Positions 3,156-5,196 of a DNA stretch of 64,000 bases are shown here, in pieces. The notes below the pieces were generated by a model, which was not told the DNA's origin, did not search any database, and saw nothing but the letters and a program-made list of their open reading frames with translations. Source of the stretch: Candidatus Obscuribacterales bacterium (GTDB lineage: Bacteria; Cyanobacteriota; Vampirovibrionia; Obscuribacterales; Obscuribacteraceae); contig JAGVKB010000102.1 of assembly GCA_020050835.1 (NCBI GenBank), forward strand, positions 62,001 to 126,000. Reading direction: 5' to 3'. The position numbers were made by a program, and so were the translations under genes. Positions within the stretch are counted from its first letter, which is position 1, and each line of letters begins with the position of its first letter.

Positions 3156-4127
3156 TTAACTCGAAAGCTCTGTTTTGATCGGCGCTGCCGATTCGGAACT
3201 GATTACCACCGGGCGCAGACCATAAGGAAGCTCCTCACGTACAGTTGCAAACTCCTCAATCAGCCGCTGGCGCTCGGTCTTTATCTTTTCGGTCAATTCA
3301 TTCAACTCTGGCAACTGGCGCTCAATCAAGAGCTTTTCGATCCGTTGATAATCGTTGAGCCTGCCTAGCAACTGTTGGGCTCTAACCAGTTGCAAGTTGG
3401 TCAGACCAAAGAATTCTGTTAATAGGTACCGCCAACGTTTGATCGCCAGCCGCAACTTGTGTAACTCTTCCGGTGTAGATGCAGCTGATTCCAGCTCCTT
3501 GACTCGCATCTCTTGTTCGCATACGTAGCGATCAAGCAGATAGTAGGTTGAGACAGGCTTGGCCGAAGAATTTGCGTTCTTGTCCCTGAGCGCCACGTAT
3601 CGCTTATTCAAGTAATTTCTCAGCCGCATCAAAAGGACTGCGGGCTCGAGATGATCGATGCGACTGCGAACTTTCCGCCTGACATGTCGCTGCTGTTCAT
3701 CCCATTCAGCCAGAATTGATTGAGGGCAGCCGAAAGTCTTGCCAAGCTCAATATTCACGTCCAGGTCGCGCAGATTTCCAAGTGCCTTGAGGAGCTTGCG
3801 AAGCTTGCTGACAACTTTCTTGTTAATCTTCTTTGAAGACCAGCCGTCTTCTTTAAGAACTGCCCAGACGGAAAACCATCGTCTTAAGGCGACCCTTGTT
3901 TCATGGACTCGTTTTTCGGTAGGCTTTTTGCTTAGCGGCGCCAGCTCTTGACTGACTGAATCGCAGAGTAAAAGTTCTGTCGATTTCTGAAAGTCTAGCC
4001 AGGATGCTTGCTCGATATGGGGGGGAATTGCTGCGACGAAATGTGTTGACTTGGATGACCGAGCGATCGAATCCCCGGATTGCTCGAAAATAATCGCTGT
4101 CATAGTTGGCTCATCGACTGGACTCAT
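3156..4127 (-). CDS. CHAD domain protein
   Basis: A 323-residue cytoplasmic alpha-helical protein with both halves of a CHAD (conserved histidine alpha-helical) domain. The first signature is VHETRVALRRW (about 74-84), the second LHKLRLAIKRWRYLL (about 222-236), each rich in the basic residues that line the polyphosphate-binding groove of CHAD proteins. A second LRKLLKALGNLRDLDV block follows the first histidine helix, as is typical. There is no CYTH/triphosphatase domain, so it is a stand-alone CHAD. CHAD proteins bind inorganic polyphosphate and often localise to polyphosphate granules; that role here is inferred. I start at the ATG at 4127; a GTG lies immediately before it and another ATG at 4103, and none has a strong Shine-Dalgarno. 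It is divergent from the methyltransferase at 4270. Confidence 0.85.
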   Translation of the reverse strand: MSPVDEPTMTAIIFEQSGDSIARSSKSTHFVAAIPPHIEQASWLDFQKSTELLLCDSVSQELAPLSKKPTEKRVHETRVALRRWFSVWAVLKEDGWSSKKINKKVVSKLRKLLKALGNLRDLDVNIELGKTFGCPQSILAEWDEQQRHVRRKVRSRIDHLEPAVLLMRLRNYLNKRYVALRDKNANSSAKPVSTYYLLDRYVCEQEMRVKELESAASTPEELHKLRLAIKRWRYLLTEFFGLTNLQLVRAQQLLGRLNDYQRIEKLLIERQLPELNELTEKIKTERQRLIEEFATVREELPYGLRPVVISSESAAPIKTELSS

Positions 4128-4269
4128 CACTATCTTAATCCGGTCTGGACTGCTGGCGAAAGTAGATCGAGCGGCGAGCTTAATACTGTGACACAGGTAA
4201 GTGGGCGATTCAAGCCACGGTTAATGATTGTAGGGCAGTGACTTCGCCGGCGGTGACCGTAAGGAATTT

Positions 4270-5196
4270 ATGAGAGTTTCCACAGTGCAGGCGATTACAG
4301 ACTTCAAAGCAGCGCGCGCCGTCGAGTTTTTCTCCGGTATCGGTGCTTTTGCACAGGCCGCCCGCGCGCTAAACATCGAAGTTGTCGCTGCTTTCGATCA
4401 GAGCCAGTCTGCCAATCTGACTTATCGACTTAACTATCGCCTTGAGCCGAAAGCCCGCAATTTAGACAGTTTGGACTTCAAGGAGATTCCGGAGGCGGAG
4501 ATCTGGTGGATGAGCCCACCGTGCACTCCGTTCAGCGTCCGTGGTAAGCGCCGGGACGAGGAAGATCCCCGGGCAATTTCATTCTTGAATTTGATCAAGC
4601 AGATCGGACGATGCCTTCCTGCGGCGCTGCTGGTCGAAAATGTGAGCGGCTTTGTCGGATCGCAGGTGCACAAGCGTTTGCGCGAAGAGCTCGCTTTCTG
4701 CCGTTATGCTGTTTGCGAGGTCGACCTCTGTCCCACCGACTTTGGAGTTCCGATGAGAAGACCGCGCCACTTTGTGGTGGCATCGAGGCAGCGGTGGCAA
4801 TTGAAAGTGCCTGAGATTCCCCGCTGGCCGGCGGTCGAGCTCGGGCATTATCTGGATAGAGAGCCTGATGCGGCTCTGACAGTGGAAAACGAAATTATGC
4901 AGCGTTACGGTCGTGGCTTCGACATAGTCGACTCCGCTTACTCCGCTGCGTACCTGACTTGCTTCACGAGCGGCTATTGGCGGTGCCGGAAGGCCAGCGG
5001 GTCTTTGATTGCGCTGCCAAACGGCGGCGCGCGCCGAGTTTCGCCTCCGGAGATTCAGCGCTTGCTGGGCTTTTGTCCTGACTTTCAGTTTCCAGAATCA
5101 ATCAGTCTGCCTGGACGATGGCGCCTGCTGGGCAATTCGGTTGACGTACGGGCTGTTGAGTATTTGCTGAATCTGCTCGAATTGTCCGGTGCCTAG
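4270..5196 (+). CDS. Dnmt2/TRDMT1-like cytosine-5 methyltransferase
   Basis: A 308-residue SAM-dependent C5-cytosine methyltransferase. Motif I is EFFSGIGAF (19-27), motif IV is MSPPCTPFS with catalytic Cys85, motif VI is ENV (123-125), motif VIII is GVPMRRPRHFVVA, and motif X is RLLGNSVDV. Two features point to the Dnmt2 family, not to a restriction-linked methylase: the CFT tripeptide (231-233, in YLTCFTSGYW) and the run SPPEIQRLLGFCPDFQFPE, both very close to the human TRDMT1 pattern. It also lacks a long target-recognition domain and has no restriction enzyme next to it. Dnmt2 enzymes methylate C38 of tRNA (Asp in eukaryotes, Glu in Geobacter), so a tRNA substrate is the best inference; DNA cannot be excluded. 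The ATG at 4270 has AAGGAA just upstream. Confidence 0.82.
   Translation: MRVSTVQAITDFKAARAVEFFSGIGAFAQAARALNIEVVAAFDQSQSANLTYRLNYRLEPKARNLDSLDFKEIPEAEIWWMSPPCTPFSVRGKRRDEEDPRAISFLNLIKQIGRCLPAALLVENVSGFVGSQVHKRLREELAFCRYAVCEVDLCPTDFGVPMRRPRHFVVASRQRWQLKVPEIPRWPAVELGHYLDREPDAALTVENEIMQRYGRGFDIVDSAYSAAYLTCFTSGYWRCRKASGSLIALPNGGARRVSPPEIQRLLGFCPDFQFPESISLPGRWRLLGNSVDVRAVEYLLNLLELSGA

Follow-up and report, generated by a model that had tools for sequence, protein, structure and literature searches.

The locus and its product

The window, by which we mean the entire 64,000-nucleotide stretch of DNA that was analysed, carries close to its start an intact reading frame encoding a protein with the motif complement of a Dnmt2-type C5-cytosine methyltransferase (Table 1). 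Dnmt2 enzymes resemble DNA methylases, yet the molecule they modify is transfer RNA. The 308-residue length, MSPPC motif, CFT tripeptide and SPPEIQRLLGF block named by the first-pass annotation are all found in ORF 4270-5196. PF00145 is the single Pfam family recognised in this protein (E=3.2e-34), which is without companion domains, and no other reading frame of the 7.0 Mb genome matches it, making this the only C5-cytosine methylase found there. Given the strength of this match and the presence of homologues in 32 other genomes of the family, the reading frame is not a product of chance. The predicted catalytic residue, Cys85, is invariant in 44 bacterial Dnmt2 sequences, and the CFT tripeptide is a marker of Dnmt2 (PMC3227630). 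A scan for promoters and terminators yielded nothing above chance.

Table 1. Positions of the Dnmt2-type gene, its motifs and its divergent neighbour within the window
Feature	Position	Strand	Remark
CHAD-domain protein, divergent neighbour	3156..4130	-	Pfam; context only
AGGA, possible ribosome-binding site	4262..4265	+	4 nt ahead of ATG; from sequence
Dnmt2-type tRNA cytosine-C5 methyltransferase gene (predicted activity)	4270..5196	+	308 aa, ORF intact
Motif IV MSPPC, residues 81-85	4510..4524	+	Catalytic Cys85, predicted
Motif VI ENV, residues 123-125	4636..4644	+	E123 invariant
Motif VIII region RRPR	4756..4767	+	R164 invariant, R166 nearly so
CFT tripeptide, residues 231-233	4960..4968	+	Dnmt2 marker
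Motif IX block SPPEIQRLLGF, residues 258-268	5041..5073	+	From sequence
Motif X GNSVDV, residues 288-293	5131..5148	+	From sequence

In L032, the nearest relative (64% identity), the Dnmt2 gene likewise has a CHAD-domain neighbour. No restriction nuclease was detected among the nine neighbouring ORFs of the window (PADLOC for all, Pfam for five as well); the earlier statement that the enzyme has no restriction partner is therefore accurate for these nine ORFs and needs softening as a wider claim. In ten loci (L070 (3905-4600) and the corresponding place in L074, L052, L096, L055, L045, L049, L051, L040 and L047), a reading frame for a PF00849 RNA pseudouridine synthase, a gene that is absent beside the window gene, directly overlaps the Dnmt2 gene at its 3' end. 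The arrangement is an RNA-modification setting, and since the three genera concerned (g5, g11 and g13) group together in the gene tree, the overlap may have arisen in a single event. Elsewhere in the window, a haem-oxygenase-like iron redox enzyme (PF14518) is encoded at 1213-1971 on the reverse strand and is adjoined by a thioredoxin-reductase-like gene at 2004-2990.

Dnmt2 or DNA methylase

When the single sequence was used as a query against solved structures, the first five matches were all Dnmt2 (3e-34 to 5e-28), with HhaI appearing after the Dnmt2 structures (5e-18) and aligned at residues 14-184 only. By sequence, all eukaryotic Dnmt2 of known structure outscore every DNA methylase by far, and the gap is wider still in a profile search (374-239 bits for Dnmt2 vs 135), in which the profile itself includes Pmt1. 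As a control, a cyanobacterial homologue lacking CFT ranks HhaI first and Dnmt2 far below. An AlphaFold model covers the whole chain (pLDDT 92.9, pTM 0.90), and with this predicted model as the query, Foldseek matches 1-9 are Dnmt2 chains. The structural Z-scores overlap, with Dnmt2 not separated from HhaI (Z 32), and the fold is consequently supportive rather than decisive. Alignments of the model span 272-293 residues with Dnmt2 structures and 288 with HhaI; thus, the target-recognition region, which the first-pass annotation had described as almost missing, is indeed short, but it is present.

The best sequence and Foldseek matches, namely S. pombe Pmt1 (6fdf), human DNMT2/TRDMT1 (1g55, 9hgm) and E. 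histolytica EhMeth (3qv2), are likewise single-domain enzymes with a CFT tripeptide. They differ from the window protein in their modest identity (27-33%), in forming a eukaryotic clade of their own, in carrying an insert of 10-25 residues between CFT and motif IX, and in having PNSRxR instead of PMRRPR at motif VIII. Among bacterial enzymes, the Geobacter comparison was made with the G. argillaceus protein, as the G. sulfurreducens protein lies outside the sequence set. This homologue is 42% identical over 296 residues, has all of the motifs including CFT and falls into the same bacterial Dnmt2 clade, whereas its genomic neighbours are different, its motif IV reads SPPCQPY instead of SPPCTPF, and the window protein belongs to a separate Obscuribacterales subclade. 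M.HhaI, a type II DNA C5-methylase, shares the catalytic fold and the motif order, but is only ~20% identical, lacks CFT, has a restriction partner, and is of a type found on the DNA-methylase side of the tree.

The tree itself brings together the window protein, 20 further sequences from Obscuribacterales, 33 Dnmt2-like proteins from other bacteria, 4 eukaryotic Dnmt2 with solved structures and, as DNA methylases, 17 sequences taken from related genomes. Support for the branch dividing Dnmt2 from the DNA methylases was 99 in a quick tree and 100/99 in a thinned, careful maximum-likelihood tree. The window protein lies inside an Obscuribacterales clade (100/97), which in turn belongs to a bacterial Dnmt2 group (97/92) that includes Geobacter. 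AU tests rejected trees in which Obscuribacterales were held with the main DNA-methylase group (p 0.003) or joined to the second one (p 0.009), while a tree uniting them with all DNA methylases together, which amounts to a basal position within Dnmt2, was not rejected (p 0.19). Hence, the phylogeny that the first-pass annotation had proposed as a check places the protein in the Dnmt2 clade and not among phage or restriction-type DNA methylases, and the suggested Dnmt2/TRDMT1-like identity is borne out by the sequence ranking, Foldseek, CFT and the 100/99 branch. The PPC, ENV and motif X signatures, the single domain and the host tRNAs with a cytosine at position 38 (C38) are in agreement as well, the last carrying little weight because such tRNAs are common among bacteria. 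By every defining feature open to testing, the assignment of the protein to Dnmt2 is supported, and an activity on tRNA would be expected from this membership.

Distribution and inheritance

Dnmt2 is widespread among the genomes of the family studied here (Obscuribacterales, non-photosynthetic cyanobacteria), and it is present in several phyla. Homologues with 41-64% identity occur in 32 of the 49 other genomes of the family, and every full-length one contains CFT. The other family of the order has no homologue in its three genomes, and the remaining matches in the class resemble DNA methylases, as judged from motifs checked in a sample. Every genus sampled more than once stays together in the gene tree, with 14 changes being the minimum. 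This genus-congruent pattern speaks for vertical inheritance within the family, accompanied by losses. A recent import from a phage or plasmid was considered and dropped, since all matches from such sources are distant: phage matches are DNA methylases with 25-26% identity among the matches listed, the best matches from phage and plasmid records together are DNA methylases with 25-29% identity, and the closest sequences in viral contigs reach no more than 24-32%, with a single-sequence scan of these contigs finding nothing.

Beyond the family, a genome scan confirmed 219 relatives, and the list of taxa, which rests on 80 of the 219, includes, according to record titles, Geobacter, Desulfuromonas, Syntrophales, Myxococcales, Pirellulaceae, a Riflebacteria bin, Lujinxingia and others. 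At higher rank, these fall into Desulfuromonadales, Syntrophales, Myxococcota, Planctomycetota and other groups, although some titles are doubtful (L104 Proteobacteria, L054 Actinobacteria, L094 Klebsiella pneumoniae). In eight of these bacterial Dnmt2-like proteins (L034, L076, L085, L097, L101, L106, L107 and L108), CFT is replaced by CIT, TFT, CFA or CFG, which shows that bacterial proteins of this kind can depart from the marker. A Syntrophales homologue (L059:2977-4380) is 468 aa long, its Dnmt2 part being followed by an extension of ~150 residues. A survey published in 2011 recognised bacterial Dnmt2 in Geobacter only and suggested a transfer from eukaryotes (PMC3227630). Among the papers that we searched, none dealt with Dnmt2 in Obscuribacterales, and the published bacterial cases that they contained were confined to Geobacter. 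The notion that bacterial Dnmt2 is rare, which the first-pass annotation shared, does not hold against the distribution described here.

Activity and candidate substrates

Taking these observations together, we consider it probable (roughly 85%) that the gene encodes a bacterial Dnmt2, i.e. a tRNA cytosine-38 C5-methyltransferase. In the presumed reaction, S-adenosylmethionine would serve as the methyl donor and cytosine 38 of the anticodon loop as the acceptor; C6 of this base would be attacked by Cys85 and the methyl group placed onto its C5, with E123 and R164/R166 assisting catalysis as in DNA C5-methylases. The resulting C38 mark might tune decoding or tRNA stability.

The 46 predicted tRNAs of the genome were read for position 38, and C38 is found in tRNA-Asp(GUC), tRNA-Glu(UUC), tRNA-Val(UAC), tRNA-Val(CAC) and tRNA-Ala(UGC), while it is absent from tRNA-Gly and tRNA-Glu(CUC). 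Across the family, C38 is invariant in 41 tRNA-Glu(UUC) and 36 tRNA-Asp(GUC), and it does not covary with the gene, being equally invariant in genomes with and without it. For this reason, the tRNAs are no proof of a substrate, and any prediction is made by analogy. An apparently patchy tRNA-Glu arm pattern across the family, seen by exact matching, proved to be merely stem and variable-loop variation. Among the other predictions is an odd tRNA-Cys(GCA) of 100 nt with a long variable arm and a low tRNA score of 30.5 bits (L167:100-199; G000:C17:124713-124807), which occurs beside an ordinary tRNA-Cys.

Provided that the enzyme acts on tRNA, its likeliest target would be tRNA-Glu(UUC), a choice that we favour with some reserve, followed by tRNA-Asp(GUC). 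This first guess is derived from Geobacter, whose Dnmt2 (that of G. sulfurreducens) is reported in papers citing the work to methylate C38 of tRNA-Glu, and from the variable loop of tRNA-Glu(UUC), which is 4 nt long, reading UAAC here and CGAC in most gene-bearing relatives. The tRNA-Glu of G. argillaceus has the same anticodon loop, CUUUCAC, together with the 4-nt variable loop CGAC. In eukaryotic tRNA-Asp, the variable loop is AGAC, also 4 nt, and would fit a rule of this kind. Changes in the variable loop are known to lower C38 methylation (PMC6409601).

An enzyme of the same kind could instead have C38 of tRNA-Asp(GUC) as its main target, as in eukaryotes, possibly under stimulation by queuosine at position 34. 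We regard this as rather unlikely, yet it is the most serious of the alternatives. The anticodon loop of tRNA-Asp here, CUGUCAC, creates the context C36-A37-C38-G39-C40, which closely resembles the context CACGCG in substrates of human DNMT2 (PMC6409601), and the genome has a TGT gene for queuosine insertion, making a queuosine link through tRNA-Asp possible. The Geobacter report argues for tRNA-Glu instead, and the variable loop of tRNA-Asp, which reads AGGUC in each of the 36 family members, has 5 nt where the loops of tRNA-Glu have 4. Moreover, U40 replaces C40 in tRNA-Asp in 16 of the 23 genomes with the gene. The corresponding figure among genomes without it is 5 of 13, both being raw counts that ignore kinship (loci L213-L241 and L253-L258).

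It is quite improbable that this Dnmt2-like enzyme modifies a different RNA, such as rRNA or the C38-containing tRNA-Val and tRNA-Ala species. The pseudouridine synthase overlap in ten loci and the C38 of these additional tRNAs are both compatible with such a role, but the Dnmt2 substrates on record are tRNA-Asp and, in some cases, also tRNA-Glu, tRNA-Gly or tRNA-Val (PMC5372726; PMC4860778), and the pseudouridine synthase neighbour is confined to three related genera. Least probable of all is a DNA-modifying enzyme with a chance resemblance to Dnmt2, namely a DNA C5-methylase of restriction type that is now, or always was, an orphan: the fold is common to HhaI and both PF00145 and many PADLOC methylase models match the protein, but these profiles also match general DNA methylases, and the tree and AU tests, sequence ranking, CFT, lack of a nuclease among the nine neighbouring ORFs, and genus-congruent inheritance, which is unlike that of mobile restriction systems, all speak against it.

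Implications for the origin of Dnmt2

A bacterial Dnmt2 in Obscuribacterales would represent a known type of enzyme, and its relevance to the origin of Dnmt2 lies in where it occurs. The eukaryotic Dnmt2 form one clade in our tree (99/93), and none of the AU tests in which bacteria were nested within eukaryotes led to rejection (p 0.12-0.40), so the tree is compatible with a transfer between bacteria and eukaryotes in either direction. We tentatively entertain, without holding it to be the likelier outcome, a scenario in which the Dnmt2 family of tRNA methyltransferases is ancient in bacteria, extends over several phyla and has been inherited vertically in the non-photosynthetic Cyanobacteriota. 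In this case, the Geobacter genes would not have come from eukaryotes; rather, eukaryotes may have received a tRNA-acting Dnmt2 from bacteria, with tRNA-Glu as the older substrate. The family-wide occurrence of Dnmt2, together with its relatives in other phyla, makes the 2011 view of a transfer from eukaryotes (PMC3227630) testable. It also provides a large set of bacterial enzymes and tRNAs for addressing two questions: which of tRNA-Glu and tRNA-Asp was the original substrate, and whether the turn of Dnmt2 from DNA to tRNA predates the eukaryotes.
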